Shown here piece by piece: positions 1 to 47,205 of a DNA stretch of 64,000 nt (position 1 is its first letter; each line of letters begins with the position of its first letter). The position numbers and the translations under genes are program-made. The notes under the pieces were generated by a model, which saw only the letters and a list, made by a program, of their open reading frames with translations, searched no databases and was not told where the DNA came from. The stretch covers positions 28,546,367 to 28,610,366 of the forward strand of contig NC_092525.1 in assembly GCF_037038585.1 (NCBI RefSeq), written 5' to 3'. This DNA is from Patagioenas fasciata (lineage: Eukaryota > Chordata > Aves > Columbiformes > Columbidae).

Positions 1-70
1 CCTTATCATGTAATAAAGTTACAATCCAGTTCTTGAGGGGAAAAAGCATTACTCTTCAATTTGATTACCA

Positions 71-76
71 TTTATT
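71..76 (-). promoter_or_regulatory. Polyadenylation signal of amylase copy 1
   Basis: AATAAA on the minus strand, 103 nt after the stop codon of copy 1. It implies a short 3' UTR ending near position 50. The stretch 1-178 holds this 3' UTR and flank and is repeated at 9070-9247. Confidence 0.8.
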
Positions 77-178
77 ATTCAGTCAATACAGAGAATCACT
101 TATGCTCAAATACCAGGAAATCACATATGGGGGAAACAGAAATGCACAGACCAAACGGAGAAAGACGTTTCTCCTGAG

Positions 179-4360
<4,182 letters not shown>

Positions 4361-4398
4361 GGTGCCTTCAGTATAAGGCTGTGGTCTCTCCACTGCCA

Positions 4399-4405
4399 AT
4401 TTATA
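4399..4405 (-). promoter_or_regulatory. TATA box of amylase copy 1
   Basis: TATAAAT on the minus strand, with its near edge 39 bp upstream of the ATG. Transcription would begin about 10-15 nt before the ATG. Such a very short leader matches what is known of mammalian pancreatic amylase promoters. A CAGCTG E-box at 4531-4536 is a possible upstream element, but the arrangement is not a textbook PTF1 site. Confidence 0.75.
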
Positions 4406-9069: not shown

Positions 9070-9139
9070 CCTTATCATGTAATAAAGTTACAATCCAGTT
9101 CTTGAGGGGAAAAAGCATTACTCTTCAATTTGATTACCA

Positions 9140-9145
9140 TTTATT
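9140..9145 (-). promoter_or_regulatory. Polyadenylation signal of amylase copy 2
   Basis: AATAAA on the minus strand, 103 nt past the stop of copy 2. Its position is identical to that in copy 1. Confidence 0.8.
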
Positions 9146-9247
9146 ATTCAGTCAATACAGAGAATCACTTATGCTCAAATACCAGGAAATCACATATGGG
9201 GGAAACAGAAATGCACAGACCAAACGGAGAAAGACGTTTCTCCTGAG

Positions 9248-13429
<4,182 letters not shown>

Positions 13430-13467
13430 GGTGCCTTCAGTATAAGGCTGTGGTCTCTCCACTGCCA

Positions 13468-13474
13468 ATTTATA
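13468..13474 (-). promoter_or_regulatory. TATA box of amylase copy 2
   Basis: TATAAAT on the minus strand, 39 bp upstream of the ATG of copy 2, within a promoter identical to that of copy 1. Confidence 0.75.
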
Positions 13475-15892: not shown

Positions 15893-16682
15893 CAGCACAG
15901 GGAGGAGCATACACGTTCACTACATGAGATGTCATGCTTTTACAGCAGCTTTCCTAAAAATTGATTCAATGAATGTTCCAGCACAACATGGATGCAAATC
16001 CATCCCTCTGCCACCCCAGCTTGCACAGACAAGTGGAGCTGGTGTGTGTCAGAGGGGCAGGAGGGGTCCTCTGTCCTGATCCTGGGGCCAACCCACATGG
16101 TTACAATGGCTATTAACATCCAGCCACATCGGCCTCCCAATCTCTGACACCGCTCCAGTGAGCAGATCCATTGACTGTGTTTTGGCAGCAGGCCCCTGCT
16201 CTCAGCAAGGCAGTGCTGGCCACAGCCAGCAAGGGAGACAGGCAGCAGATCAAGCCCATAGGCCAGGGGCACTACCTGGCCCTTTCTCCCTCAGCATCAT
16301 GGCCTTGCCAGACACTTTGACCCCTTGCGCACATCAAGGGCCAATATCCACCCCAACACCTCTGCACTCTCTGCCACAGAAGAGAAACAGCCTTTAGAAG
16401 CCCACCTTGGGTCTGCTTTGTCACAAGAATGAGATAAACTGTCTGTGCGTGTAGGCAGCTCTGGTAGGTGCTACACACAATGTGGCTGCTCTGGGATACA
16501 GATGTGTGTGTAAGGATCGTCTTTGGAAATACTACACTGTAACTCACCCAGGTGTTAGTTTGAGATCTTTTTATCTATTTTATTTTCTTCCATGTTTCTT
16601 TGATCTGGGAATTGCAGTGCTGCATTGCCTTAAAACCTATCACTGCTTTGCCAGTAGTTATGAAGTTACTAATTTACAATCC
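15893..16682. other. Spacer 2 between amylase copies 2 and 3
   Basis: Non-coding mosaic. 15,915-16,040 aligns with 7662-7790, 16,338-16,400 with 7790-7852, and 16,404-16,682 with 8826-9088, all at reduced identity. 16,041-16,337 is GC-richer and has no partner in the window. The LTR and about 1 kb of spacer 1 are absent here. Confidence 0.65.
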
Positions 16683-17260: not shown

Positions 17261-24494
<7,234 letters not shown>

Positions 24495-24558: not shown

Positions 24559-26899
24559 TACACATTACAAAATACACATTAAAAAGTAAATGCCCATCTC
24601 TGGCATCATTTATTTAACTTTACTTGATTGTCATTTTGTTTGAGAATTGGATTCTACTTAAGCCATACCAACCTCCCATACTAACAGTAACTGGGTTTTT
24701 CTGAAGTTAAAATTCAGACGTTGTCTAATACAGAGTCTCTCTAGTGCGCAAATTTTTATTAGTATAAATCCAAAATAACCCAAAAAGGCAAAGGAGTAAT
24801 TATATAGATTGAAATGGACATTTTATGTCTCATTTTAATGTATAATACTTTACATTCCTATTTATCCTTGAGAGTCATCTTCCAATCTGTGTTACTATGA
24901 CTTGTGCATATTTAGACAAGGCCTTGGAGAAGAAGCATGTTTCTCATCATGAGTTGCCATGAAACCCCAGATACTTTGGAGGTGTAACATATGTGAGTCT
25001 GTCATTTGTAATATGCATGACATCTACCATTCAAACAACAGCCCTAATTTTGGAAGATCTCTCAGGTAAAAAAGTGACCATACTGACCCAAAACCAGAAA
25101 CACTAAATGGTTAATCTCTGTACAGCTGTGCAATTTGGGTGGAGGTATTCTTCTTCCCAAGGACACAGCCCAATGGTATGCAAAGGTTAGAGGTGCCGTG
25201 AAGCTCCATAACCAAGAGTTCTCCTCAGTGCCCAGGTACAGAATTCTGCAAAGGCACTGAAGGAGCTTTCCAAAGGAACAAAAACAGCTGCCTTACCTTC
25301 TGACAAGCCAGGCTAGGAACTATACTTCGCAATTCATAGCGTATTTGTATTTACTTATATACCAACACAGATGACAGGCCTATTGAAATTGCCTCTCCTT
25401 TTTCTCATCTAAAGAGAGATATAACTAACCAAAAGTTAAACACTGATTAAAGTTTACACTACACCATTTAGGATGTCACTCTGCATTCCTTATGTTTAGA
25501 AGTTGATTTAGAGAGCCTGAGATACAAAGTCCTAGAAGGACATCTTTTGCAAACAAAAGGCTGAATGATTGCTTCCCCTAAATAACAAAATACAGAATCG
25601 TCTTTCTTTCCTCTAAGTCTCTACATGTTGCAAAAAAAAAAAAAAAAAAAAACACCAAAAAAAACCTGTTGTAACACAGAAACAACACAGGACAAGGAGG
25701 GAATACGAAGATTCCCAAGTGCTGTCACAGGGGACAGCAAACACCTCAGTGAAGGTTTAAACATGAATACATGTGTCTTCGGGTTTGTTACATGAAATAA
25801 ACCTGCAACCTTTCCGGATTCAATAGACATTTAGGAGTGCACTTCTGAACATTCCAATCTGCTATCACACTGATACAAAAAAATAAACAAACAAAAGTTT
25901 ATATAATATCTTACTGATTTCTACAAAACTACCCTCCCTCTCTCATTTTTATTTTAGGAAATGTACGATCCCTATGTCTCAGTCAAGCTGCACTCTTTGG
26001 AGCTAATTCAAGTACAAAAATATGCCAGTTTATAAAGTATGGAACCTGCCTTCCACAGCCTGTTAATATCATCTGTCACCACACTTCACACGCTGCCAGA
26101 GTTATTTAGAACGAATCATTTGATAATTTTAGATTGGTTTTATGCTTGTGAACAAGACTATTTTAATGAACTTATTTATTTGTAGCTCTTTGGCAGAATA
26201 TACAGATAAATTTCAGCTGTAAGCAGCTGTTCTGTGCACTTCCATTTTCATGGAAGAATGCTTATTTGCCCTGATAGGAAGAACACAAATTAACAGAAAA
26301 CAAGCTAAAAAAGTTCAGTCTTCCCTCTTGAGGGAAGTCATTTATCAGATTGGCAATTTTTACTTACAGCAGTAAGTACACAAAGCAGTAAGAATAATAC
26401 ATTTTGACCTAACCAGCTCCAAGGCCTAGGGCTTGAAGAGACAACTCAGCATAGTTTTTAATGTATTTGAAACCGGTTTATTGCTGCTTTGGCTTCAGTA
26501 GAAGCCATGCTAAAAGAACAGAGATGTTGAAATGCTCAATGCACTCTGAAGGCTCTAGCTTCAAAATGCTTTTGAAACTTGGAAAAAAGGAATAGGCCCA
26601 TATTCCTGTATGGAAGAAAAGAAAGCACAACTGATTGCAAGTCAAAGACCATGGGAGAGAACTGTTTCTGGAGAACACTATTGCTGTCTTGGGCAACCTG
26701 AGAGCTCAGGTCAGCTCGTCTTCTGCTGAGTTAGTCTGTGGTATGACACTCAGCTGCTATCTACAGAATACTGGCAACAATATTTAAATTCCCGAGAAGT
26801 TTGAGGAAGGCCTGTTGAATCTGCAGGTGGTAAAAGGCCGATATAGGAAAGTAGTTGTAGTCACCGCCCACAGAACTCCGCTCAGCAGCTGCATGTTTC
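24559..26899. other. Intergenic, upstream of amylase copy 3
   Basis: AT-rich non-coding DNA. I see a poly(A) run at about 25,630-25,671, no convincing coding exon and no recognisable repeat family. It could hold the regulatory region or leader intron of copy 3. Confidence 0.6.
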
Positions 26900-27180
26900 A
26901 TGCACACGAAGCAACTCCGCTTCGGCGCCTCCTTTAGAGACGCAACACTACCCCTCGCACAACCCTCGCCGGGAATCGCTCTACCGCCCCACGTCCTGCC
27001 GCGCCTCTTGAGCACAGACCACGAACACCCCGAGAGAGAGCAGGGAACGCAACACGCACGTTTCGGGGCCCCCGCGTCAGCTCCAGCGGCTCCAGCAGCC
27101 GCCGCCGCCCGCCCAGCGCCGCCGCGGCGCCGGCAGCCCCGCCCCTTCCGCCTGCGTTAGCTGAAGGGGAACGGGCTCGT
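26900..27180. promoter_or_regulatory. Orphan CpG island
   Basis: GC-rich and dense in CpG, sharply bounded by AT-rich DNA. It includes a GC box (CCCCGCCCC, at about 27,135) and CGG/GCC-rich runs near 27,100-27,135. It is 2.4 kb upstream of the copy 3 ATG and about 4 kb beyond the 3' end of RNPC3, so neither annotated gene start explains it. Open frames through it (for example minus 26,934-27,281) read as compositional artefacts. It is probably a promoter for an unrecognised transcript or a distal first exon of amylase copy 3. Confidence 0.65.
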
Positions 27181-30100
27181 CTAACAGCTTCACAGCACAC
27201 AAGATCATGTCGGATCAAGATAAAATTACATTCTGGAATACACTGAGGCTCGAGATTCGAGAAAGATCTCTGCATATACATTTATCTCTTTTTTTCTGTT
27301 GTTAAAGGATATTTGTCTTTTGAGTATAGCACCACCTTGCTGTCACGCTACTTCACTACTTCGCAAATCTGCTTGGGAGCCTTCTATGTAATGTTTTAAT
27401 AGCTTGGTTCCGTACTTGTAACTCATTGTGGGTGTTAGGACATACTGCGCATTTCCTCTATTATATACCTCTTTATATGCAATAAACTGAGTCACAAAGC
27501 TTTGTAAAGTGGCTCCATCCCTATACAGAGTAAAAATACAGTAGCACAAGGAAGGGTTCTGAATCTTTGAAGGCTACCATGAATTAACTAAAGTTTTCTA
27601 CTTTAATGTTGCTGGAGTGGCTTTGCTAGACAAAGTAACAAATGAAGTTTGTCATCAGAATGTTTCTTTTCTCTGGAAACAGTCAAAAACACAGCTACGG
27701 TATATGTTTCTCTATGTAAAATATAAAACGATCTCACACCAGAAGCTGCTTGCTAGGCTGGAGTAAAAGATTCAGGCAGGAGCTCTAGCACTCAAGTGTT
27801 TGTCCTACAGCAGCAACAGAGGCAATTCTCAAGCTATTGAACAAAACCTGTGTATTGACAACCACAAATGTGTTCCCTGCAGCCTTGTATCCAGTAGGAA
27901 GATACATTTAATGGATAAACTGGAAGCAGTTGGAAATGTCCTAGAAAATAATAAAGGAAAAGTGATTCCCAGTTTGAGATCAGGTCCTTTTAGGTGTCAG
28001 CTTCCAAATACATGAAGAGATAAAGATGCAAACTATGTCACATGTGAAATGTCTCATTGAATTTTTCAAGTCACTAGTGTCATAAGGATAAACTAGCCAG
28101 AAAGGGCCCACTAGTAATGCATGTTAACTCCACAGATTACATTATTCTATTTTCACCCTCTCAACCCCAAAATTTCACGACCATATAGTGAAGTCCCCAA
28201 AATTCACAGTTTTTGTGGGGAAAAAAACAAAAACCAAAACCAAAAACAAAAACCACTCAAAAGACTGGAACTAGAGATGAGCCTTATGTATCAAATTCAC
28301 AGCAGGGATACTGGAGAAATGTGCATGCTTTTTAAAATCCATCTCTTTAGAATTAAAAGTATATTAGAATGACCTGAATTTGGCTTTCACAGAGAATTCT
28401 GACAAGGCACACAACTCACATTTATAGGTAGAAAATAAAGTTAATTTAGTTTCTGCTATCACAAGATCTTTGCTATATCAAGGAGTCAATTTATATGACA
28501 GCCCTACAGTAAAATTCATTATTTAGATTATCTGAGCCAGCTTCACCTTGAAAATATAGTGATCTGAGTATGTTCAAAATTTAATTAAATGAGAAAGGTT
28601 GCTGTGTCTATATGTCATTAACTAATGAAGAAAATTTGTGAAATAAGCCTGCACTCACTGCTTATAGGCAATCTCAAAAGCCAGCTCTAGTGACTTCTTA
28701 AAAAATAGAGGTCATTTGACCCGAAATATCAGACCAAAGGTTCCGAGGGGAAAACAAAACCAAAAAACCCACAAGAAGAACAACAACAACCACCACACAC
28801 AAAACAAGCAAACTCAAAACAAACTAATCAACCACCGAACAAGAAAACCCACACCACCAACCCAAAACAAAACACAAAACCAGTTGATTCAAGGGAACAA
28901 AAGCTTCGCCTTCCCATTTTAAGCAAGTTCTCTCAACTAGACTGCAGAAGCAGCTTCCTTGACAGATTCTTAGTACATGATGGTGGGGAGTATGCTTTAT
29001 TTATTCTTTAATAATATAACCCCACCAAGAACACAGCTCAGCTTTAATCATAATGAACAGCCACAGAACATTCATTTTTTTTTAAGCCACTTTTTTCTCT
29101 TCTAAGCGTCATAAACTCCTCAGAAGTTCTCATAAAACATCCTCAGTGTATTTTTCTTGGCCTACTACCAATGCAGACAAGATAAACTAATGAACAAATA
29201 CACAGTCCAGATGGGAACGCAGCAAATAAGCTAGAAGAATTCCAGTAAAAGCATTTAAAAGTAATCTGCTAAACCAGTTCATATTGAAAAAAACAGCAAA
29301 GATATACTTATTTTGGTCAGCAATCAATACTAGTGATTTAGGTTGTTTGCAGCTGGCATTATGACAAAGGTCTTTAAACCAGCCTGTTACCACACCATCA
29401 ACCATGAATTAATATTTTATGGAACAATTTTCTCCTTAAATCAAATGGACTCTTCTTGCAAAGTGAACATCACTGCAACGTTTCCCATGTGGTTTTAGGA
29501 AGTTATGCTAATCTTCCTAGTATGTAACAAATCTTACTATGTGACCTCCACAGCACTGATTTTTACTACACACAGTTCAAAAGGGCAACGACCACACCTA
29601 CACTGGTTTGACAGTTTTAACTGCTACTCTTGTTTTAATGACTTTAGTCTCACTAGTGATATTTTTCAAGATGTGGCTGAACAATGGAAGTTATCACTGA
29701 GGAAAAAAGTGCCTAATTTCACAGTACAAATTCATGCCAGTGCACTAGTCCTCCTGCTTAGTTTCCAAAACAAGAAAAATATTTACACTAAAATGAGATT
29801 ATCCTTAGATTTTCTTATCTTTTTACCCTGAAACACTAACAGCTAAACATCACACTCAAGTAGGTGCACATGAGTATACACTCTGAATCATCTAGAACAT
29901 ACTGCACAGTTATAATTGGACTGTCCATCTTTTCAAAAAATAAAGTGTCTTCCTCCACTTTCCCCCTCCCAAACCCCAGGACAAAAGTCAAAACAAAGAA
30001 AAAAGGCAAAATGAAGACCATGGAAATAATTTATTAGAGATTTTACAAGCAAAGTAACATACATTCAATTAATCATGTAAGTCTTGTGACAGTTTAAAGA

Positions 30101-30880
30101 TAACTGGAATTTTTAAGATGAGAAAATTCATACTCTGCCTTAAATACTTTAGAACTGCTACTACGCACAGTTCAAGAGTCCCGATGATTACACTGCTTCT
30201 TCCCCAGCTTGATAACACTTGAAAGAGATGGAACACAAAAGGGACCTGGAACATCACAAAGGCATGTTAAAAGTAAGAACAACTAGAAAATAGTACTGTT
30301 ATGCTTTCTTTTTGACAACTAAATCGAAAAATCCTTAGTATTTAGAAAAGTGCAGAATGTCTGAAAAAAATCTGACTTGATATTATTAATTTTATGTTAC
30401 AATAAGCTAACACTATTGCAGTACAGAGAACAAGAGCAGTCTAAAAAAAAAAAAGAACCAGCAAAAATGTAGGATTGATTAATAGTTGATTATTAGTTCA
30501 ATTCCAAATACTTCATTGCAAGATATTGTTAGATTTTCTTCTCTAATAAAAAAGGAAAGAGTAAGGAATGTAAAATCTAAGTCAACTACAGATTGTTTCT
30601 CATATATCAGGACAACAGTAATCATCAAGAGATCTAAATTACCAGTCAACCCTTTCATATTATTAAGAATTGCTCTGCAACATATTTTAACCAATGTATT
30701 ATTATTGTATTTATTTAAAGAAAAAGACATCCTCCGTGTAAGCTCAGCACAGCTCCATGCATATCAGTGGAACACTTCTAGCTCATACAAGCCAGAGAAT
30801 TGGATCACAAATTAGCAAGTTATATGACCTTTGACGAACAAGGTGGAGGCCACATTTCAAAACAAGGAAACTTCATTGTG
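27181..30880. other. Non-coding DNA between the CpG island and the RNPC3 3' end
   Basis: AT-rich. No coding exon is supported. A 68-codon minus-strand frame (27,343-27,549) has protein-like composition, but it has no family match that I recognise, no clear splice sites and no partner exons. An A/C-rich low-complexity tract lies at 28,751-28,881. Confidence 0.55.
28751..28881. repeat. A/C-rich low-complexity tract
   Basis: About 130 bp almost free of T and nearly free of G on the plus strand (AAAAC, AAC and CAC motifs). Shorter tracts of the same kind occur at 21,800-21,885, 28,218-28,258 and 45,366-45,422. On the minus strand these read as G/T-rich. Confidence 0.8.
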
Positions 30881-30886
30881 TTTATT
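30881..30886 (-). promoter_or_regulatory. Candidate distal poly(A) signal of RNPC3
   Basis: AATAAA on the minus strand, about 174 nt below the USSE repeats. It is the first canonical signal I see after the alternative terminal exon begins at 31,127, and so may end the long RNPC3 isoform. Other candidates lie further on, so this is a weak call. Confidence 0.4.
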
Positions 30887-31059
30887 CACACAAGACAGAT
30901 AACTCATTGACTTTCTTTCCCCCCATCCCCCCAAAAAGTGCCCTTTGCTTTTAAAATTACTGGGTTAGTTCAAGTTCTAAAATATGTAAACTCCTCCCCA
31001 CACCTACTCTATATGAAAACTTAGATGTGGTTGAGTGCTATGAGAAACATCGCGCAAAA

Positions 31060-31083
31060 AAAGGATACAACAAGAAAGGATAC
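31060..31083 (-). promoter_or_regulatory. U11 snRNP-binding splicing enhancer (USSE)
   Basis: Two exact copies of GTATCCTTT on the minus strand (31,083-31,075 and 31,068-31,060), separated by CTTGTT. Each is a perfect U12-type 5' splice-site sequence and so a binding site for U11 snRNP. In the U11/U12-65K and -48K genes, paired sites of this kind are known to recruit U11 and to activate the 3' splice site just upstream without being spliced themselves. Here a strong 3' splice site lies 44 nt upstream (exon start 31,127). The function is taken from the known family mechanism; the sites themselves are seen directly. Confidence 0.85.
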
Positions 31084-31126
31084 ACTCTGCATGACAGTAT
31101 TACTGCAGTATTTACGCAGGAATGTT

Positions 31127-31149
31127 TCTAAAGAAGAACAGCAGAATGT
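31127..31149 (-). promoter_or_regulatory. Alternative 3' splice site of RNPC3 (long isoform)
   Basis: The minus strand reads TTCTGCTGTTCTTCTTTAG followed by AAACATT: a long pyrimidine run ending in AG at 31,129-31,128. It sits just upstream of the USSE, where an enhanced acceptor is expected. The natural partner is the donor at 33,985, which would give an intron of about 2.86 kb. Confidence 0.7.
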
Positions 31150-33953
31150 GGTTTAATTTTACTTGATTCTCAGTATTGCATACACAACTTTATGCTACCT
31201 ACCAAAAGCAAATATGCTTCTTTGACAAGACACAGTTTTGACCCCTTAAGAGATTTAATGAGGGCTGATGAGTCCACCAACACTAAACTCCATATCCAAA
31301 AGTAAATACATTTTTGATAACTTGAACTACTAGGACAACACCAGATTTTTCTGTCTCATTAATTCTCCTTCAAGTCTGCCATTTTACAGACTCACTTTTT
31401 CCACCAGGTCCAAAACCCAATCGTGTTTCCACTCAATGCAGGCTTTCAAGTCACTTCTTCCCTATGAAGAAGCTGGAGACCTCTCAACATCAGTTTCTTC
31501 TACATAACCTTTCTCCCAAAGAGCTGTATTTTAGCTACAGAAAAAACAGACACCCCAAATACTAACTGAAATTTTTGCTAGTCCATCAAGAAAAAGCCAT
31601 TTCAGCCTGTAAGGATTTACATAGTATTTTTATAAACCATATATATTATTGCAACTAAAAAGGATGAAACCTTTGTAGAGAAAATACTAAAAATAACAAC
31701 AATCATTAACTTAACGCAGCTTCTTCCTGTTTAAAAATAACCAGAAGTTTAACTTTTGTGAATTTAGTTGTTAAAAAACCCCAACCAAAGAACAAAAAAA
31801 ACTTGAGACACAAGATACAGATCAATTTGAAGTCCCTCAAAAGTTTGCATTAACTTGTCTATATGCATATTTATTTTTCAACGAGATCCTTTTGTCACTG
31901 TTCTTCCTTACAGACTCAGATTTCTATCATGGAATTTTGCATCATAAATCAACATCCATCACAATATTCCATCAGGAGCAGGAAAACATAGTCATGCAGA
32001 CAGAGGGTTCAGTTTTATCATTACTTGGGAAGTAAGTATTTTTAATTAAACCTCATGTATCCCTAGAGATCTCTATTAGTCTATGGCACATACTGTGATC
32101 GTTACATATAAATGATCAAGGTAAGGAAGAAGTTCTACCCCATGACACATGAAACCAGTGACACCAAGGTAAGTCATGAAGACTTTCAAGTTCACAAGTC
32201 TTGCATAAGTATGTGTTTGCTCACTCAAAAAAAGCTTCCGAGTTGACCATCAACATGATTAATAACCAACTAAACACCTCATTGTTTTCTTTATGTAATT
32301 CAAATATTATTTAGCATGTTTAGTAAAGTCAGAATTAGATTTAATGTACAAAACTAGTTGGAAGGACACGAAACTCCTAGAAGTGTCCAGAGTTCATTTA
32401 TAAGGCTTTCAAATAGCTAAAATATTTCAAGTTTCTATTTTGCATTTAAGGAAACCTTACTAATTTCTTCTTATGAGGTACTAGATAAAATAATATAAAT
32501 GCAAGGTTATTTCTAACATGGAAGGAGTAAGAAACAAGACTGAAACATTCTCATAAATCTTTGTTCCTTATGGAATACTTTAGCCAAGGTTCATTTGTCT
32601 TTTCCAATAACTGATACAGAAGAATGCCTGTAAAAAACCTGATCTTTAATTTGATAAAATAAAGACTTTTGCAAACCACAAATCAGTAACTCAAAATAGG
32701 AACTTGTAAAACCAAACAGCATCTCAGAAATGAGGGAAACCATCTCAAATATAATCTGAAGAAAAAAATCCTTAGACAACTGACAGAACAAGAATCCTAC
32801 AATTGAATTAGTTGTTATAAAGAGAAGTACTACCCTCACAATAACCATACAAATTTCTGAAAATAAAAACCAGCTGTTCACATTCTTTATTACAAACTTC
32901 AGGGTTTTTTTCCAAAGTAACAATGATCAAAACATTCAGATTAAAAACACATAATGGATTAAGTAGAACGTTTCAGAAGTGTTCAGCCTAAACTTTTAAG
33001 TTCATGTGGTCACCAGGGTGATGCCCAACTGTAATCCGTAATTAAGTTTAATGCCCTTTAAATTTGAGCTGATCTATCAGAGGGTGCAGAATAAGAAATA
33101 AGTGCTTCTAATTCTTGCACCAGTTATTTCACACAATAATTCGAGACAGTTCACTACTCAAATGTTTTTAGTCCACGAAACCCCTCCCAGTTAAATTAGA
33201 GCTGATTTGGCTTGAGTTACTCTCATATAAAGCAAATACTTAGAGTAAGCAGCAATGAAGTAAAGCTATACAACAGGAACAGTTAAATAGTGGTTACTTT
33301 CTGCTAACAGTTACTTTCCCATCAAGTTTAGACAAAAATGGCAAAAAAAAAGGACCTATGCATTCCACAGCAAAGGAAGCCTTGATCAAATGATTAATTA
33401 TTAAATAGCACTTTCTGACACAACATCTTTTCCTAAATCACACAAGTTTAAGGCACACTGCAACAGCACTAAGATCTCATTTTTCTAAAGTTAGCAAAAC
33501 CAAGGGTCCATTTACAGAGCTAGCAGAAGTGGGTTAATTCCTGGAAACAGTTCTTCAGGTTCACTTTAAACGGTAGGGACAGAAGGGAAGGAGAAAGGAA
33601 CAAGTCTTTTCAAAGCCGAAGCTCCAGATTACTAAAAGGTAAGTGGTTCGATTCCACAGAATTATTCTCATTAAATTCCCCAGATTAAGGATTAGAGAAA
33701 CTGACAACTACCCTAGGATATCAGGATTAGGGAAATGGCAGTCTCCAGGTTTCTAAAGAGAGGAAGATGCAACATCTTAAGCTTAAACCAACTATATACC
33801 TTGCATTCTGGTATTCTGATGTAACTGCACATTTAAGAAAAAAAAATTGTATGGAACATTTCCCCCCCACCATCACTATTCCTAAAGGTGCCACTAAAAA
33901 TATAATAAATATAACCAAATGAAAAAACCCCAACAAAACAAATGAACAATTTG
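31150..33953. other. RNPC3 3' region (intron of the long isoform)
   Basis: AT-rich non-coding DNA between the two alternative 3' ends of RNPC3. No coding exon or repeat is recognised. Short frames such as 32,591-32,923 have no support. Confidence 0.55.
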
Positions 33954-33959
33954 TTTATT
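33954..33959 (-). promoter_or_regulatory. Proximal poly(A) signal of RNPC3
   Basis: AATAAA on the minus strand, 40 nt after the stop codon. It would give the short, export-competent mRNA. It lies 26 nt below the alternative donor at 33,985, so cleavage here and splicing of that donor compete. Confidence 0.7.
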
Positions 33960-33979
33960 TGTATTTTCAGGCAGAGAAT

Positions 33980-33988
33980 CCATACCTT
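33980..33988 (-). promoter_or_regulatory. Alternative U2-type donor in the RNPC3 3' UTR
   Basis: The minus strand reads AAG then GTATGG, a strong 5' splice site, with the exon end at 33,986, 13 nt after the stop codon. Because the stop is less than 50 nt from this junction, splicing here should not trigger nonsense-mediated decay. It pairs naturally with the acceptor at 31,127. Confidence 0.7.
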
Positions 33989-33998
33989 GTGCAGTGTT

Positions 33999-36900
33999 CT
34001 ACTTTTTTCTTTTCCCTTCATTGGCATCCTGTTTTGGTCTAGCTGAACGAGCAAATTGCTAAGATTCTGTTAAGGACTAAAAGTGTCAATGATAAAAGGA
34101 CGTCAATTAGAAGCAAAAGACAAGCATTATTTAAGCAAGAGTTTAAAAAGTGGCCTTTATCTGTGAATCAGTTCCACTACAGTATTCAATATTAGTCAAA
34201 GATTAAGCCTTCACTGATCTGCAGCACAAAACAATTTTAAGAGACCCTGTCCAAGAGTTTACAATACTAATAAATAAGGAGGACTAAGTGGGAATGGGTT
34301 GGGTGCAAGCAGAGCAACTACAGGATAAATGCTTGATATTTACAATCTTCCACCCCAGCATGTTGATTCCGTAACTTTGATGTCTCAGTAGGTAGTTGGG
34401 AGGAAAAAAAGCTAAAAGGAACAGAGGTCAGAATGAACAACAGTACGAAGAAATAAACTATAAAACATTTAAGTGAAAAATAAAAAAGGACTCACAGACA
34501 CAAAATAGGGTAATGCAATCAAAAAGTGTATTACACAGGCCCAAAAAGTAACTGACAGTTCCAGCTGGAGAAGCAGTCTAAACAGAGACCACAGAGAGGA
34601 ACCACCTCTTTATATTATTAATTCTGCAAACACAGGGTTAACTAAGTCAAAAGCCTACTTAATTTAAATACAATGGTCACACAAGCTAAATTGTCTTTTA
34701 TACTGTGTGTGCAGGATCAAAGAGCTAACACCAGAAGAGACAATTTTATTGTCTTAAATCAAGCACATTTACTTTCCTATATCAGAAGAGTTGCTTCTAT
34801 ATACTTTTCAGTTATCTTAAACTTGACAATAGCACATTGTGCTACGCTGCCTGGTTTTAAGGTATTTCCTCTTCCCATAATGTTCTACCAATTGGAAATC
34901 TATGACAGCAAAACTACAGACTGACAGACAGATTACAAATAATATAATGTAAATGTTTGAAGAAAAAGATACAACCACCATGGGTTTTTCAAATAAGACA
35001 TATCCATTTGCTTCTTTTAAAGCTTTAGCAGCTGCTTTTTCATTAGGAAGTCCAATGAAAGCCTGTCCCTTCATACGACCTTCTTTCATCAAACGTATAT
35101 CAAACCTAGAGGCAAAATTGAGAACAGGAATGACTCATGTTTAACCGCACTTTCATATTTCACAGTACAAATGTAATTGTAATGCTTCCAGTTGGAGAAA
35201 TCGCAGAAACAGGAGCAGAGCCTACAAGCAGGAATTATGTCATTGTAGACCATTTTGCCTGGGGAAACCATTTAACAAAAAGTGACATTAGACTGCAGGA
35301 CAGCAAATTGGTGTGCAACTATGGTAAATATGACATATGCAAAATAATCAGAAACAAACAATCATCTACACTGTTCATTCTGTGTTGCTCAGCCAATAAA
35401 CCGTATATTTGGTAACAAAAAAATATAAGGGCAAAATAGGGTTTTCAGACACTGTTCAAAAAATAATTCTATTTCTGTATTTGTGATAAACTAAGGTTTT
35501 CAGATGGAGCATAAAGGAGCATAAAGAAGAAAGTACAGATGACTAGATTTAAATCACAATTTTCAACAGTATTATAGAATTTAACCTAAAAGGCTTAATT
35601 TTAACCAGGGACCAAATTAACTTACATATTTCGTTCCTCTTCTGACTGGAAGTTAACGTATCTTCCAAAAATGAACTTGAGATCCTGAAATTAAACGGTA
35701 GGTATAAGATGAAAGCTGATAAAAAGCCCTTTTGATAAATATTTCATTTGCTTGTTTACCTACCTTTTCTTGAACTTGTTTAGCTAAATTCTTCACATAT
35801 ATCCTGCAATTTGGATCACCTGGCTCATAGTTTTTGAAAACAGAAAATTTTTCCATTTCTTGAAGAAGAAAGAAAAACAGACTGTTTTAGCTTATTTACT
35901 TACTTCTTATTTTTGCTCAGTATAAAATAACTAAATTTAATATATGATCAATTAATAAATGAAATACTGATTTTAACTATTTCTTGCAACAAATCAAAGA
36001 ACTATTATTAGATAATGTATTCTCACAGTCATACCTTCTTTAGAAAGCCTGTTTTTTTCTAGATCCCTTCTAGAAATAAATTCTGATGGTATTTCATCTT
36101 CCTCCTCTTCAGTTTCCATTTTATCATTTGAGCTAGGAGCTGGGAAAATCCTTCCAAAGCCTGTATTATTGATTTCTTCTGTGGTTGCATAAAGGTCTGA
36201 AATATCAACACATTATATAAGTGGTTTATATGTTATTCACAAGAGGATCGACAGCAAGCAAAAAATTATACTCCTTTCAGTAACGTTTTAATATAGTTAC
36301 AGTTTTACTTTGTGAAGCAATTTGGACATATCCTTAAAGAAGGGCATCTTAATCCCTGGTCTGACAAACACAACTGCTCTATATAGTCCTATAAAATCAA
36401 CTGTGGTACAAAGAAAAGCCATTGCACATGCCAGTTAAGGTAAAGCTAGCCTTGCTGTTCAAGCCTGTATCCATTTCAATGGTTTATCTCCCTTTCATTC
36501 AAAGAAGCTGTATAGACCTGTAAAGTACCAAGAAACACAGACTGACCATAAACCTCTAAGAAACCATCACACCTCATTGCAATTATGACCCCGCATTTTT
36601 AGAGCGGATAATCAGTGCATCCCAGAGAAGAAGCTGGCAATCACTTGAACGATGCTTTTTAAAAGCTGGAAAAGGAAAATCTGAAATTAGCCTGATACAT
36701 TCAATTGCACATATAATACCGAGAATGCAATTCACCATAAACCCACAGATCATGTCAGAGAGAAAGAGACCTTTAAGATTGTCTGGATCCTTTACTATAC
36801 CAAAGCACAGAGGTCTGTGCTTTAACATAGGAAAAACAGCAAATGCAGACAAGACACAAGTTGGTGTTCTTAAACCCTGATGTATACTATTTATAAAACT

Positions 36901-39900
36901 TCCAATACAAAAGAAGAAAATTATTCCCAGACCTAAATTTCAGCAGCCTCCTACACACTGAAGCCACATGAATTCAATATCAAATACATTTGAAGTATGA
37001 ACACTTACCATTTTTTTCTTCTTTTTCTGAGTTTATCTGAAGAACAGCTGGGATGTCAGTAGTAATATGGAACTCGATTTTCTTATGACCTACATGCTGT
37101 GGCTGATCAAAGACATCTGAAGGTGACAGTGCAGGGTGCAAATTACTGTTTAAAACAACAATGTTAATTAAGATTCAGACACTAATGAATGCATAGTGTA
37201 CAAGATTTTTTCCAGACACTTTTATGCTGTTGTTTACCACAAATATGTAAGTTCCCTATTTCATAAATTTCACCCAATACAGTTCAGGTTGATTAAAACA
37301 CTGCAAATACAGAAGGCTGGCAGTCAGAGACACAAAAAAAAAAAAAAAAAAAAAAAAAAGACATACCACACTAACTTGAATATGAAAAATAACTGGCCTT
37401 GCTGCTGCTCTCCAATAGTGTAGAAAATATACAGTGTTCAAAAAATATAGCAAATCACATGGAGAAAGAATGCAGCTATGAGCAAAAATGCATTCACTAT
37501 AGATCATCACTACGAAGCAATACTACACTGGTGCCTGCTGTGCTATGGTACTGCAGTTTCAAAAGACAAAAACTTATTTTAAACCAAATCATCCGATTTT
37601 TATTTTAGATTTTTATTTTAAGAAGTATCTCATACAATAAACCCAGATGGCTTCTGTCAGGGTTGTGATATGAAAATTGTTTTTCTTTTTTTATGAAAAA
37701 GGGATTTTTATCAGTGTGACAGCGAAAGAAACACAGAGCTTGAACCAGCTACACTTTACAGATCAAGGTTGTTGAGCAGACTAGAGTACAAATTACAAAT
37801 TTTGACCTTTAAAGCAATACAACCAAGCATGAGGATAAGGGAAGATCAACTCCACTACCAAATTTACATAGCAGTGAAGAATGCTTGTTTTAAAACAGCA
37901 ACACTGAAGCAACATGATACAGAGAACACCGTGTAGTAAAAGGAATAATCTTCTGAAAAAGTTCAAAACCCACAGAAATAATACAAACCTGTGAGGAGTA
38001 CACACTGGAACATTCAATAAGTCTTTAATTCTTTGCCTTTTTCTAACACCACGCTTCTTTGTGTTTATTGGTCTTTTAGGCTGAAACGTTGCTAATTCCA
38101 TCAACTTGGTCATTCTGTTTAAAACAACATTTAAAAAAGAACCAAAGTGGTTTACAGTTTATTTGAAAACACCAATTTTGAAAACCTTTCCCTCTTCTTT
38201 AAAGCCCTTGAAATACAGCTTTTCCAAATATGGTTATAAATAAAGCTGCCTTAAGACCCACACTACATTAACAAACTGTAACACATAGCAAACCAATATA
38301 CACAAAACACTTAAGTGACAATCAAAATTATAATGAGTTCCATGATGCCCTTCCTTTCCCAAGCATGCACCTAATTAGGACACTGAAGCTGGAGGAATGC
38401 TAAGAAGCCCTAAGCTGAACCTTTCTGGGAAGAAGCTTTTGAAGGTGTTGGGATCCCCCAGTGTTGGTTTTTTAAGTACCACCTACTAAGAGCACAGGAC
38501 CAGGCAATTCCAAAATGCTGAAAATGTAGCAGACGAGGTAAAAAGCCAGCCTGAAATACAGCGAACAAAGAAATTACATGATCAGTGGAAGCAAGGTCAG
38601 GCAACATGGAAGGACTACAGAGATGCTGCTCGCCACTGTAGGGAAGAAATACATGCTGTCAAAGCTCAATCAGAATTGAAGCTGGCCAGTACTGTGAAGG
38701 ACAATAAAAAAGGCTTTTTAAAACGTACTAATTGCAAAAGGTAAACTAGAAATAACATTGGCCCATTGCTTGATGAGCATGGTCACCTTATTAACAGGCA
38801 CACAGACAAAGCTGAGACGTTTAATGCTTTCTTCGTCTCAGTCTTCAACACCGATAATGGACTTGGGGGCTCCCATAACCCTGGGCTGGAAAATCATGGC
38901 TGTGAGAATGATAAACTCCCAATCAACCCAGAATTTGTACGGGATTTACCACTCCAGCTAGATCGCTACAAGTCAATGGGGCCTCATCGGATTCATCCAA
39001 GGGTGCTTAAAGAGCTGCCTGACATCATAGCGAGACCTCTCTCTGTGATTTTTCAATGCTTCTTAGTATCTGAAGAGGTCCTGGATGACTGGAAGCTGGC
39101 AAACACCGTCCCACCCTACAACAACGGCAACATGGATGACCCTGGCAACTACAGGCCTGTCAGCCTCACTTCTGTTCCTGGTAAAATCATGGAAAAGATT
39201 GTTCTGGGAGTTACTGAAAAACATCTGAATGAAAATGCAGTCATTGGTCCCAGCCAACACAGGTTCATGAGGGGAAAGTCTTGCTTGACAAACTTAATTT
39301 TATTCTACGACAAGGTTACCCACCTAGTTGACCAAGGGAAGCCTGTCGATGTAATGTTTTGGATTCAGTAAAGCCTTTGATACTGGTTCTCACAGTATCC
39401 TCCTGGACAAGATGTCCAGCACACAGCTGGGTAAGTACACAATGCAGTGGGTCAGCAACTGGCTGACAGGCCAGGCTCAAAGGGTTCTAGTAAATGGGGT
39501 AATGTTGGGCTGGTGACCAGTCACTAGCAGGGTTCTGCAGGGATCCAACTTGGGGCCAGCATTCTTCAGTGACTTTATAAACAACTTGGACTCAGGACTT
39601 AAGGGATTGCTTAGTAAGTTTGCTGATGACACAAAATTGGGGAGAGCTGTCAACACTCTTGAGGGCAGAGAGACCCATGACAGAACCCAAGGGAATGGCA
39701 GGAAGATGCCCCAGGGAGGCTGAGGTTGAACATCAGGAAAAGGTTCTTCACCCACAGGGTGATGGAGGACTGGAACAGGGTCCCCAGGGAGGTGTCACAG
39801 CTCCAAGCCTGACAGTGTTCAAGAAGAGACTGGACAACTCCCTCAGACACATGAGGTGAACTGTGGAGTTGTCATACGCAGTGACAGGAGTTGGACTCAA

Positions 39901-42900
39901 TGATCCTTGTGGGTCCCTTCCAACTCAGGGTGTCTATGATTCTTTTTTCATAATACTATTTCCACAGGCATGTATTTTTCTGAATATAGCATATGGACTT
40001 TCTGATTTACTTTTCAGCTTAAATAGCAAAGAAAGAAATTCGCTTCTTCATTTAGTATGAATATAAAGCTTAAAAAAATAAAACCAAATCACTCACAACA
40101 AAAAACAACAGCTAGAATGTAACTCAGTCCAAAAACTGCAAGGGAATCCTCAGCACATGAAATCTCTCATTATCACTACTCCTAGCAACACACACAGATA
40201 TACAAAGAACGGTCTGGTAGTCAGAATGCACGTATGATTCAGGTTGCAGAAAAATGAGAACTCCCAAAAGCAAGCTAATTATTAACTCCTTATATCTGCA
40301 TTCTATCTTCATTCTGAGTTTTTGTTTTGTTAGGTTTTTGGACATGGGAACAAATGATGATTCGCGTACCATTTGGCCATTTTCCTTCTCTTTCTAGGAT
40401 TAAGAACAGCACTGCCCTCCTGCTTTTCAGTCACTGGAGCTTCCCCAAGCATCTGGAAAGATTATCTATGTACTGCAAATATTAACAGACTCTACCATTT
40501 GCTGAACTAGAAGCTAGAAAAGTAAAAACACCACTTTAAAAAAGCCAAAATTCTCACAAATGGCTGTAAAATGCATACCTCTCCTTTTCCTCCTCATCAT
40601 CACTTTCATATTCTGATTCATCTCCACTAGATAGTGGCTCTTCTTCCTCGTCAGGCAAAGGAGGCTCTTCAGGAGGCAGAGGTGGGACTGGGGGAAGTGG
40701 TACAGGCACTGGTAGATACTCCTCATACTAATTAAGGGGAAAAAGTTTAAAAAAGGTAATTAAACATTTTTTCCTCTCCATAACAAAAATAGCCAAATCA
40801 CTAAATCAGAAGATGACAAGAAGCAGGGTTTTTTAAAGTATGTTTTTAGGGATCTAGATGCTACTTTGCTAAACTATATCACTAATGAAAACTTGCCACA
40901 AGAAAGTGTAACACTGAATATTCTCATTCTAACTTGAGGAGTTTAAAACAAAAAAGCAACCATGGCCCTGGGTTTTTACTTTGCATTCAGCTTTAAGGAC
41001 TCTCCCGAGAAGAACATGGTCAAAACATATGGTAGGTGGCCTAAGCTCCCAGGCCATCTCAGTTTCTACACTGAACCTATCCAAGTTACAGTTCTATGTC
41101 TGTAAGGAGAGAGGATTTCATTAAATGAATCGTTTTTTCCACCGAGACTGCAAAAAACACATATTAGGAATTCCCTATGTACAAAATCACCTCCAGCCTC
41201 ACTTTCAACAGTCTTAACTACACTTAACAGTTACTTCTATGCACCATCAGTTCCATTAGGCACTGATGCCTTCTGGTTTTAGAAATGCTCTGTGCCCTTT
41301 AGAAACTGCTCCAAGAATCCTGAGGCTTCTCACCTTACTACTCTTTTTCGCATGACCATTAAATTCACAGTGCTTAACCTGTCCCAATACCAGGCAACAA
41401 ATAAAATTATTCCCAGAAAATCAGTGTGAATTCACTTATTTGACCGACTTATTTCATAGTTTTCTTTACCAGTCAGCTTGCTCTTATTAGCAGCAAGTGT
41501 TTTGTTAGGGCAAACACCAAGTGCCGTGGAGCACAACTTCACTATATCCAAATACTGTAGACAACACTATTAATGTAAGTCCTTACTTGCTCTGTCTACC
41601 ACTGGCAGTCAAACTACTCTATCACAGCAATAGAAAACTCAGACCACAGAGCTGGTATTTCTATTTCCCTGCAGAAAGAGCTCCCCATAAGCCTCTGTCA
41701 GTTTCCCTCAGCCCTGCCTCATTGAAAAAACATCCTGGAAACAGAGCAAGTTAAGTACAAAAGTGTTGTATGATCTCTATCAATCTGAATCTAATCAGAA
41801 CTCCAAATGAACACACAAATAAAAGAACTTAGTACATCTTTGTAAGGCAATGGGCTAATGGTATTCTTTATTTCCTGCATCAGTAATATAATGTTATAAC
41901 CTCCCTCTTCTTTTTTTAATACCCAACAGCTTGACATATTCCAGTGCTGCTGTCATATGGCCATATTTCTTTGTTGTAAGTACAGTGAAAAAGATTTCTT
42001 TATAAAATTAACATGTGCATCTTACGCAATGAAATGCAGCAGTATTTGCTCTCCTCTAGAGATTTCTCCAACTTTTAGAAGTTTGAACTTAGATCTCCCA
42101 CCATGTTGCTAACATTTTAAATTGTGAATCCATTTTACAGTACTTAAAACATATATTTTAAAAAGTTACCATGGGAGGGCGAGCAGTAATTGGTCCAAAA
42201 GGTGGAGGAAGATTCATTTTATTCATAAGATGAAGTACCTGAAATTATGCAAGATAAGTAAGATTTCCTCCAAATAAATAAATAGCTAAATATATAAATG
42301 AAAATAGTTCCTTGCTAGGTATCATAGCCGATAGCTTTTTGCATACTTTTAATGAAGACATAACTACATTGGTTATTAAACAATGTGAAAGTCTGCACTG
42401 GAGATCCAACACTAATAGCAAATATCCCAAACACCCTAAAAAGGCTAACCAAAAAAAGTAAAGCATCTTCTCAGAACGAAATTTCAAGTACCCACTTCAC
42501 ATCTAATTAGGAAGATCATACCCAGTTAAGTCTCCAGTACTAATGAAATCTTATTTTCTCAACATAATAAAAACCTAACATTTTAATAGTATCACAGCAA
42601 AGCTAACTTAGTATTTACTATGACAAAAATTATTTCTGTAGGTAACTAAAAGAGGAAAAAGGAGATGTTCTTCTTTTTATACTTTTTATACTTTTTTTTG
42701 CCATTTTCCACTTACCTGGACGTAAAATTTGGGCACACTTGCCAAGGCATTTGCTATATTTGCTAGAATTGTACTTGAAGGTGGTGGATACAAGTATTTA
42801 AGGCAAGAATTGATGGGAAAGGTGAGGCTGAGGAAAAAAAAAAGATGAAAACCAGGACATCTTAGCACCACTGCCACAATGACTGATAACAATTGATGAT

Positions 42901-45900
42901 TACTAGAGGTTTAACTATTCATTACATCTGAAGTATCACTGAAATATTGTTTCCCCTTCAACAGTTTTGGGTCACTTACATCATGTCTCTAACACCAGGG
43001 AACAGTCCCCTAATGCATGACACACTTACTGGGTTTGGGCACAATGAAAGTACCAACACATGCAGAAAGCCTACAGCATACAGAAACAATCAACATGTCC
43101 AAAAGCAAAACGACAGCATAGCATGCTGTACAACCATCATAAATTAAATGCTCAAAGTGCTGGATTTACTAGCCCCAAAATAAATTTATTCTTCATGTAT
43201 GCAAAAATGCAAATGGGGGAAAAAAGAACAAGAAACGTCTGGAAAGACAGAAGTTAACAGTATTCTGTTGTTAACACCGGGACAACCTACCCAGTCCTCA
43301 CGCTCCTCCTGAGAAAGCAATGTATAGTGCTAGAAGGCTATTCTGCAGCCCACAACTTCACAGCTCAACACACCAGACACTATGAGGGTTCTAAACCTGA
43401 AGAACTGAAATGTCATTTTTATGACAATTACTATAAATATGCACGTGGAACAGCAGCATGGTATGAAACAGTACACTGCATAACACTTCTTTCAAAATGA
43501 ACTCTAACAGAATAAAATCATTAAGACAAAAAAACACACTAACCCATGGTTGGGTGCAATTCCATTCTCTATTTTAACACAGCTTGGTTCTTTCTTATCT
43601 TCTTCTTTCACTGGTTCTTCTGAACTGAAAATTAATCTAGCATTAATTAAAACAGGGCAAAATTTAAGTGTCTAACATGCAATATGTTTAACCTCATCTA
43701 TTTAAAATAAAATAAATATATAAGTCTTTAATCAAAGACATTACTACAGCCATTATTAATTCTTAAGAATTAATGCATGTGGATAATTATAGTAGCCAGA
43801 CTAAAATAAATATTTATTCAGATTTAAGTAAGTATCCCTATATTCAAACACTCCTGACTTAAATCTAATCACAGGAAAAGAACTAAAATTACTTTATGTT
43901 ACTCTCTGTTCAGAGACTGTAAAAAATCAAAGGCATTAAATAATGGTTTTGTTAATATTCAGAGAATGGAATAAATAACTTAAAACCTTGGTAGTTGATT
44001 TTAATTAAAGACTACCACATAGTTTCTATCACTTAGTTACATATTACTCAGGCAAACTTGAAGCCTAACTATGCAACTTAATTTTTTAATTAAGTATTTG
44101 ACAGACAACTGAAATCCAAACTATCGCAGTTCCTGGTCACACTAGCACTCAGATGCATTAATTTATTTTTATTTTTAAATATTACATATCCTTTAATTAT
44201 TTGAAGAGAGACTTGGATGGTTTTATGTTTGTTCTCCTCATGCTTCAAGCTAGATAGATGCAAATCAGCTCCAGCTTAGAAGCCAGTGGCTATAGTAGTA
44301 CAGTCTTACAGTTATGCTAGGTGTCAATCCTGCCTGACTCTTGATTAGATTAGAAAGAAAACAGTGCATGCAATGCTTTCCTGGTCTTAACAGCAAAAGA
44401 CAAGAATAATCCTGAGACACACCAAAAAAAGTAGAATAGTCTTTTTTTAAACACAGGGAACCTGTGCAACAGAGATCAGCTTACACACACTGGAGTCTTG
44501 CTCTGTAAATGAGAACAAACAGGACCATCTGCTGATTAAAGATATTAATAACTACACAGGAATAAAGATGGGAATTATTTCACGATGATACTGAATGAAA
44601 CAATACTAATGAGAGGAATGTAGCCACTTATCTGTAAAACTGAACCTCCTTGTTAACACTTCTAAATGGTTATAATTTATTCTTTGACTCAAGAGCAAAG
44701 TATCATGAATACAGAATTTCCTTTCCTTGACCCCAAACACAGAAACTAAATTATAATGCACATACCTTTTACAATTCTCTGAGACAGAAGGTTGGCTAAG
44801 TACCTGCACACTATCTTGCTCCTTCGCAAATTCAACAACTAAGGTGTGACCTAAAAGTTTCAGCTGATGCAGTCTTGACAAAGCCTTCAAATAATTATAA
44901 TGGAGAAAATAAAGAAAATGAAGAGGAAAAACATGAGAATTACTTCAAACTGTAACTGATTTTTCTTTGGTTTGTAAACTAGCCAGACAAAGCAGTCCCA
45001 GCTTCTTTCTGTGAAGTCTGGGCCACTATAGACAGAGGTGGTTCTGTACCTGCCTTCACAGCCCTGCTTTCAGCAGCCTCTTTCTGGTTAGCAGAAAGGA
45101 AAAAGAAGAGGCTGCACAGCTAGAACCATTGCAGAGACTTAGGTCATCGGAACACAGTAGAAGGAATGTAGCCTTAACAAAGTCCACTAGTAACAGCTGG
45201 GAATTTTGAAATCAAGATTCTGAACAGTGACACTAGGAGCTCTAGCATTTTGCAAGTCCAGATCCTCATAGGTTGCTAACAACTGACAGAAAGCAACCTA
45301 AATTCAACATTGTTCAATTTGTGTAATCTTTGTAACTTTTTGAGCAGTACTTTACAGCACGGCCTAAAAAAAAAAAAAAAAGCCACAAAAAAAACAAAAA
45401 CAAAAACACAAACAACAACAGAGCATAATAGAAAAATTCAGGACACAAGCTTTTTACTAGATTCACATTTTAAAAGTATTATTAGTATCATCTTTTCAGC
45501 ATTCATGTCCCACATTAACATAGTAGTTTTCTTTTTCTTACAAAAGCTGGGCATTCAAGGCAGTCTTGAATTCAGTACATCAGTATGTCTGAATTTTATG
45601 GCAAATATGCAATTAAGCAGGAGACAAGTAAATTACATTTGGTTTATAGTTTATATATAAACATGCACACACATTAGGCAGGGCTCTGATCAGTCTCAAT
45701 TCATGTAAATTTGCCATGCAAATTACAAGTGACAGGTTGGAGAAGATGACTTTCACAAGCCACTTCCAACCCACCTTTTCTTATGATTCTAGAGAAGTGT
45801 TCATTTTATCAAATCCTTCAAGCACCTACTGAAACAGAACTCTAATATTACATTGCTCTGCATTTTTTGCCCCAACACTGGGTACTAGATGACGTGTAAA

Positions 45901-47205
45901 ATGTTTAGAGAACAGCTGGCAATTCAGGAAAGTGCTTTGCTAAAACATTCAAAACCCAATACAAACCTTCACAGCTGCATTTTCACTGGGAAAGGTAGCA
46001 AAAGCAGTATGTTTCTAGAAAACAAACAAAACAAAAATTGTCAAGACAGGAACTCACCAGTTTGAGAAATACAGGAAAACAGTATTTCTTTTCTAGTGAA
46101 CAAAACCCATCCTAAACTGCAAGAAAGAACATATCAATAAAATAGTTTAATCCTCTTTTCAAAAAAAGGAAATTTATTTCAGCACCTCTCAGCAGAAGAT
46201 TTTCATCAAAGCAACTCCTAAAAGTAATACTTTTCCCACTACACAAGTCATAACTATTGTAGTGCTATAAAAGTTCAGATGGTTTCTAACTAACATTCTC
46301 TCTTACTTTCCAAGTCTGATCAAATCCTCACACAATACATAGTTCATCTTACACTTCAATTTAACAAACTTTATTACTTCATTTTGCCACCACATGATTT
46401 GGTATTAAAAACCCAAAACATTAACACTTTTATAAGAGCAGCTAACAGAAAAATCATTGTAATGAAGCCTGTATTTTTAATATCCTATAAAAGAAAGCAT
46501 GGGCCTGACAAGGGATGTGGACATCGTTTATCCGCAGTAATCCAAGGCTCTTTCCAAACAGCATCTATTGGCTGACAGACATTCCCACGTTTTTGTAATT
46601 TTGAGAAAGAAAAATAAAGATTTCAAGAGACAGACCTGTGAAACTGCATCCCAACACCTACCAACAGACCCTCCCACACTGCTTTTCCATAGCCTTACTC
46701 CTAACGACAGGGAAGGCCAAAGCTGCAGCCAAGGGCACGGGACGGGCAGCCAGCGGGAGACGGGCCCCCGTGTCAGACAGCTTCCGACCGCTCCCCTCGG
46801 CCCGGCAGTGCATTCTGCCCGCGGGGCCACCGCGCCGCAGCGCGCTCCGGCCCGGCCGGGAGAAGGAAGAACTCTGACCCTGCGGCCACCTCACGCTCCT
46901 GGGGGGCGGCAAACGGCCCGGGCCGGCGGCAGATTTCTCCTCCCGTCCCACCGCCCGGAGCATCCTCAGGCCCCGGCCCTCACCAGCCGCCCGTGGTCCG
47001 ACAGGACGCGCACGGACACCGCCCCGAAGTGCTTCAACAGATCCTCCTTCTCTGCCGCCGTCAGCTCAGCGGGCAGGTGCCGCACCAGCAGCGTCCGGCC
47101 CCGCCGCCGCGCCACCCCGGGGTGAGGCGGGACGCCGGGATGAGGCGGGACGACCCCCAGCCCCGGACCGGCTGCCCGTGTCTCCTCGCAGCCCGCTGCC
47201 GCCAT
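33999..47205 (-). CDS. RNPC3: RNPC3, U11/U12-65K minor spliceosome protein
   Basis: Protein of the U11/U12 di-snRNP, which recognises U12-type introns in the nucleus. It has 14 coding exons: 47205-46984, 46014-45967, 44884-44766, 43624-43544, 42827-42716, 42238-42170, 40727-40579, 38114-37989, 37145-37009, 36196-36035, 35858-35764, 35684-35626, 35105-34973, 34058-33999 (1572 nt, 523 aa; human about 517). RRM1 spans about residues 37-115 (RNP2 LLVRHL, RNP1 KHTAFATF). A proline-rich then acidic stretch spans about 217-267 (exon 7), followed by a basic segment in exon 8. RRM2 spans about 426-510 (RNP2 IYVKNL, RNP1 KGQAFIGL); in the family it binds U12 snRNA, while the N-terminal half contacts the 59K protein. 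The start has a strong context (GCCATGG). The N-terminus carries a duplicated PPHPGV. Intron 13 looks U12-type, and the 3' end carries a USSE switch. Confidence 0.96.
34059..34972 (-). other. Probable U12-type intron 13 of RNPC3
   Basis: The donor is GTATCTTTT, one base from the U12 consensus GTATCCTTT. The branch-site candidate TCCTTAAC at 34,076-34,069 matches the U12 consensus and lies about 11 nt from the AG, inside the narrow spacing U12 introns require. There is little pyrimidine tract between branch and AG. None of the other 12 coding introns has this signature. Confidence 0.75.
35106..38439. other. RNPC3 introns 7 (part) to 12
   Basis: Apart from the RNPC3 exons, this is AT-rich intronic DNA with a 26-bp A tract near 37,333-37,358. 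The remaining RNPC3 introns (40,728-42,169, 42,828-43,543, 44,885-45,966 and 46,015-46,983) hold nothing I recognise beyond the CR1 pieces listed separately. Confidence 0.6.
38440..39946 (+). mobile_element. CR1 LINE fragment with dead reverse transcriptase
   Basis: CR1 in intron 7 of RNPC3, antisense to the gene. 38,440-38,760 is the region before the RT domain (FFKYHLLRAQDQAIP-like, then KDNKKGF), with frameshifts. The longest open part, 38,766-39,371, encodes the RT N-terminal half (KAETFNAFF, MGPHRIHPRVLKEL, NYRPVSLTSV, MRGKSCLTNL). A frameshift at about 39,357 breaks the FLDFSKAFD block, and the catalytic FADDTKLG follows at 39,618-39,641 in another frame. From about 39,660 it jumps to the CR1 3' end (DNSLRHM-like, then 'ccttccaactcagg') and stops at a TATGATTCT tail. 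It is not mobile. Confidence 0.92.
45730..45793 (+). mobile_element. Short CR1 3' end fragment
   Basis: The terminal 60 or so bases of a CR1 ('gacaggttggagaagatgac', 'cacttccaaccca', 'ttatgattct'). It is heavily truncated and lies in intron 2 of RNPC3, antisense to the gene. Confidence 0.65.

Follow-up and report, generated by a model that had tools for sequence, protein, structure and literature searches.

For RNPC3 (U11/U12-65K), a USSE switch was reportedly described in human and mouse by Verbeeren et al. in 2010. In the sections of the 2017 paper by Verbeeren et al. (PMC5473595) consulted here, the 65K USSE of these two species comprises two U12-type 5′ splice sites which remain unspliced; U11/U12 binds to them, and a U2-type acceptor upstream is activated. 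The resulting form with a long 3′ UTR is retained in the nucleus and is prone to read-through in the direction of the amylase locus. Productive splicing employs an acceptor farther downstream, and the terminal exon of that form harbors a suboptimal U1 site, with the poly(A) signal approximately 100 bp below it. Furthermore, the same sections report that this U1 site is kept in all tetrapods examined there (30, birds included) and term the USSE ultraconserved.

Two other systems are closely related. In mammals, SNRNP48 (U11-48K) contains the same element and uses the same ligand as RNPC3, as stated in the parts of PMC8329584 and PMC5473595 that we used. Whereas the USSE of SNRNP48 drives a poison exon and decay, that of RNPC3 drives the long 3′ UTR. 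The review PMC8329584, as far as its text was available, notes high conservation of the stretch from acceptor to USSE and states that a regulatory cooperation of the two spliceosomes of this kind has been shown for no genes other than SNRNP48 and RNPC3. The autoregulated minor intron of Srsf10 (PMC7244321, consulted in part) resembles RNPC3 in that a splicing-factor gene reads minor spliceosome activity. However, in Srsf10 real minor and major donors compete, while RNPC3 relies on an unspliced U11-bound enhancer.

The present analysis covers a 64-kb window of a bird genome (the window being the whole stretch of DNA that was analyzed). We conclude that RNPC3 in this window very probably carries, at its 3′ end, the orthologous counterpart of the USSE switch known from RNPC3/65K. 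The likeness to human and mouse extends to the gene itself, the tandem U12-type 5′ splice sites, the upstream U2-type acceptor, the donor in the stop-codon exon, the downstream weak U1 site and AATAAA (candidates here), and the amylase genes beyond. The bird locus is a good example of an already described system rather than a new one; what it contributes is a record of the cis-acting parts of this switch in one more tetrapod, together with a proposed placement of the downstream half.

Gene identity and structure

The coding part of the gene is delimited by the following features:

34002 to 47109, minus strand: RNPC3 coding region; 14 exon peptides placed, extreme 5′ end of the first exon not localized
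33986 to 34058, minus strand: final coding exon, 73 nt, holding the terminal 19 codons, the stop and the donor AAG/GTATGG (the slash marks the exon border)

Judged by its translated product, the minus-strand gene between about 47.1 and 34.0 kb encodes RNPC3, the U11/U12-65K protein. The joined peptides of the 14 exons match human RNA-binding protein 40 (chain 3egn, E 1.2e-69; 5obn, E 6.8e-69), the matched region being its solved C-terminal domain, and contain two RRM_1 stretches. These matches uphold the identification of the gene as RNPC3, which the original prediction had made from the letters of the DNA. The stop codon TAG occupies 34001 to 33999 on the minus strand. Within RNPC3, retroelement remains are found on the plus strand at 38490 to 39860, where one frame scored 25.6 bits against the RVT_1 reverse transcriptase, under the curated cut-off of 29.6.

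The donor beside the stop codon

An RNPC3/65K switch has a donor in the exon which carries the stop codon. At this locus, the donor CACAAG/GTATGG has its last exonic base at 33986, 13 nt past the stop, and ranks first among the 417 GT sites between 34050 and 28000 on the minus strand, the stretch in which all donors and acceptors were ranked with approximate matrices. The strong donor that had been postulated at this position thus stands. Its nearness to the stop had also been read as fitting an outcome which avoids nonsense-mediated decay. The distance of 13 nt does fit, and the nearly equal half-lives of the long and short isoforms given in the consulted sections of PMC5473595 agree with this reading.

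A further element had been noted directly below the donor:

33954 to 33959, minus strand: stop-proximal AATAAA, 26 nt below the donor, intronic and outside the published switch

It had been proposed that this hexamer competes with the donor as a poly(A) signal. The hexamer is indeed present, with a GT-rich stretch below it, but its placement is no better than chance: an AATAAA starts within 40 nt at 52 of the 1300 GT sites on the minus strand between 47300 and 28000. Five AATAAA are counted between 33985 and 30036. In addition, the published productive form relies on the downstream acceptor, and 3′RACE and RNA-seq in mammals gave no nearby alternative poly(A) site (both according to the available parts of PMC5473595). 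We regard the role of competitor as very unlikely.

The tandem sites, their predicted ligand and their chance level

The two features that characterize a USSE, tandem sites and an upstream acceptor, are both present:

31117 to 31152, minus strand: acceptor TTCTTCTTTAG/AAACATT, exon start 31127, rank 4 among 361 AGs
31060 to 31083, minus strand: USSE, GTATCCTTT-CTTGTT-GTATCCTTT, two sites with a gap of 6 nt

Each copy of GTATCCTTT (31083 to 31075 and 31068 to 31060, separated by the spacer CTTGTT) matches at 9 of 9 positions, and the exon start at 31127 lies 44 nt above the first one. The pair of perfect sites was accordingly recovered as predicted, as was the strong acceptor upstream of it, the strength of the latter being measured with the approximate matrix.

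One U11 gene exceeds the family cut-off in the genome (C32:58800-58930), and its 5′ end reads AAAAAGGGCTTC. In silico pairing of this end gives -4.9 and -6.1 kcal/mol at the two USSE sites and -1.9 kcal/mol at the donor beside the stop codon.

Within the 64-kb window the GTATCCTTT tandem is unique (expected 0.00; 0 of 100 shuffles), and lone GTATCCTT is common, with three occurrences against 1.62 expected. Across the whole 1.454-Gb genome, a perfect tandem with a gap of 2 to 12 nt occurs four times compared with nine (3 + 6) for a reversed-pattern control, so that the motif by itself is not unusual at the scale of the genome. Unlike the motif alone, a tandem that falls within RNPC3 and follows a good acceptor by 44 nt is remarkable; arithmetic from the genome-wide rates puts the odds of a tandem match in one strand of a 17-kb gene at about 2e-5 to 5e-5.

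The three other tandems of the genome are referred to as L001, L002 and L004. In a 172-nt stretch surrounding the tandem, L001 and L002 share 75% identity, and they therefore probably belong to one dispersed repeat. L004, on C21, holds the sole other perfect tandem outside this repeat pair, GTATCCTTT-GA-GTATCCTTT at 1501 to 1520 (G000 C21:9132938). It lies 14 to 15 nt behind the pyrimidine-rich CTGCTCAG, in surroundings which, in the part judged by eye, appear gamma-glutamyltransferase-like, and we have left it as chance. The tandem scan of viral contigs amounted to 17 stretches.

Perfect tandems that exist elsewhere by chance or in repeats such as L001/L002, as well as a SNRNP48 without such a tandem in the same genome (see below), would be compatible with a relic or chance pair that has no function in bird RNPC3. 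However, both copies are perfect, they follow a good acceptor and they reside in the one part of a gene that should contain the published element, which makes this explanation highly improbable. That a minor intron in the 3′ UTR genuinely uses the sites as its U12-type donors can practically be dismissed: they match the U12 donor consensus at 9 of 9 positions, but a search of the minus strand between 47300 and 28000 for branch sites of the exact form TCCTTAA[CT] gave only 34076 and 33691, each of which lies upstream of the tandem, and the published USSE sites are unused as donors in the consulted portions of PMC8329584 and PMC5473595.

The proposed downstream half of the switch

The orthologous USSE switch, our preferred reading, requires further elements. 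In its published form two acceptors compete for one donor, and the switch as first described was therefore incomplete. The original prediction had called it complete; this did not hold, as it had missed the downstream acceptor and, in the terminal exon, both the weak U1 site and its accompanying poly(A) signal. Candidates for these elements are:

30440 to 30465, minus strand: candidate short-isoform acceptor, exon start 30440, T run and AG, rank 1 among 361 AGs
30245 to 30270, minus strand: alternative candidate short-isoform acceptor, exon start 30245, GTTCCAG/GTCC, rank 14 among 361
30163 to 30171, minus strand: candidate suboptimal U1 site ACT/GTGCGT, last exonic base 30169, donor rank 35 among 417
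30030 to 30035, minus strand: proposed poly(A) signal AATAAA of both isoforms, T/GT-rich stretch below

The U1 site was located by deduction. The compensatory U1 in the accessible text of PMC5473595 carries T4G and CT8/9AG, and these changes, combined with the 5′ end of U1, require positions -2, -1 and +4 of the human site to be C, T and C, respectively. The search pattern CTGTRCGT deduced in this way has a single occurrence on the minus strand of the window. This copy precedes the AATAAA at 30035 by 135 nt, which agrees only roughly with the ~100 bp reported in that source. Two copies are found on the plus strand, neither of which is followed by AATAAA 60 to 160 nt below. We deduce that the downstream half would be located at 30440 or 30245, 30169 and 30035. 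Depending on the choice between the acceptors at 30440 and 30245, the stretch specific to the long isoform would measure 687 or 882 nt, respectively. A search of the genome for a second copy of the proposed terminal exon returned none, so that the splice is visible in no processed copy.

Two other placements were tried and rejected. A U1 site at 30425 (CTCT/GTACTG), behind the T-run acceptor, has no G at +5, ranks 282 among 417 and has its next AATAAA 390 nt below; it was dropped, and the site at 30169 fits better. A terminal exon formed by the AATAAA at 30886 and TAG/GTGTGG at 31004 does not contain the C, T and C required by the deduction, and its exon would measure 5 nt if the nearest AG were used.

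Proposed mechanism

By analogy with the mammalian genes, bird RNPC3 is expected to use the USSE switch. The U11/U12 di-snRNPs would pair with the two GTATCCTTT sites, as the computed pairing suggests, and, following the work on the human gene, the bound particles would activate the acceptor at 31127 by exon definition. The stop-codon exon would then be joined to 31127, and the resulting RNA with its long 3′ UTR and bound U11 particles would be kept in the nucleus. When U11/U12 is scarce, the donor at 33986 would instead be joined to 30440 or 30245, and a terminal exon ending below the AATAAA at 30035 would give an mRNA with a short 3′ UTR which is exported and translated. The weak U1 site at 30169 may restrain cleavage of the long form and thus permit read-through toward the amylase genes. 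With the choice of acceptor depending on U11/U12, more U11/U12 would mean less 65K.

A probable U12-type intron and the partner gene SNRNP48

Signals of the minor class are seen in the last coding intron:

34059 to 34972, minus strand: final intron of the RNPC3 coding region, with GTATCTTTT as donor and TCCTTAAC as branch site

We classed an intron as U12-type by an RTATCCTTT-like donor and a TCCTTAAC branch site close to the AG. In this intron the donor GTATCTTTT agrees at 8 of 9 positions and the branch A of TCCTTAAC precedes the G of the AG by 11 nt; by its signals it looks U12-type. A gene for a minor-spliceosome protein would consequently need the minor spliceosome for its own mRNA. If the intron is retained, the reading frame continues to a stop inside it. 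RNPC3 is listed as a minor-intron gene in the consulted text of PMC6865273, which does not name the intron; which RNPC3 intron is U12-type was not found in our literature searches, including the parts of PMC12332006 and PMC3958305 they covered.

The partner gene was also inspected. SNRNP48 exons lie on C2 at about 77091.4 to 77082.9 kb on the minus strand, with the first exon not pinned. The human SNRNP48 USSE is located in intron 4. A search for a USSE-like tandem on the gene strand of 37 kb around the bird gene (G000 C2:77062001-77099000; L010-L013), run with no positive control, gave a best pair of 15/18, and 51 of 100 shuffles of its 8.5-kb part reach 15. SNRNP48 would thus appear to have no tandem pair of U12-type sites above chance in this genome. 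We treat this absence as a lead, not a result.

A more speculative scheme, which we consider unlikely, is that in this lineage the published two-gene U11 feedback has been reduced to RNPC3 alone, with loss of the SNRNP48 USSE and a bell-shaped dependence of RNPC3 output on minor spliceosome activity. The bell shape would arise because the donor of the U12-type last coding intron pairs with the U11 5′ end more weakly (-3.1 kcal/mol in silico) than the USSE sites do (-4.9 and -6.1 kcal/mol). If true, too little minor spliceosome activity would leave the intron in place, and too much would fire the USSE. Should the SNRNP48 of birds truly be without a USSE, whether one feedback arm suffices would become a directly askable question.

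The amylase neighborhood

As in mammals, RNPC3 is followed downstream by an amylase locus that lies on the same strand:

1 to 24530, minus strand: amylase gene cluster, exon frames assigned by eye; the read-through target in mammals

The Alpha-amylase family PF00128 was over the cut-off in three of the five frames tested, and the two shortest gave no match. Between RNPC3 and these genes, a G+C-rich stretch at 26760 to 27280 with overlapping long open frames (by eye) is perhaps a promoter island. Within the cluster, the blocks 1 to 6817 and 9070 to 15907 are 99.5% identical over 6.8 kb, a degree of identity by which they are classed as a recent tandem duplication. A third match of 1.2 kb, at 18585 to 19765, is 97.7% identical.
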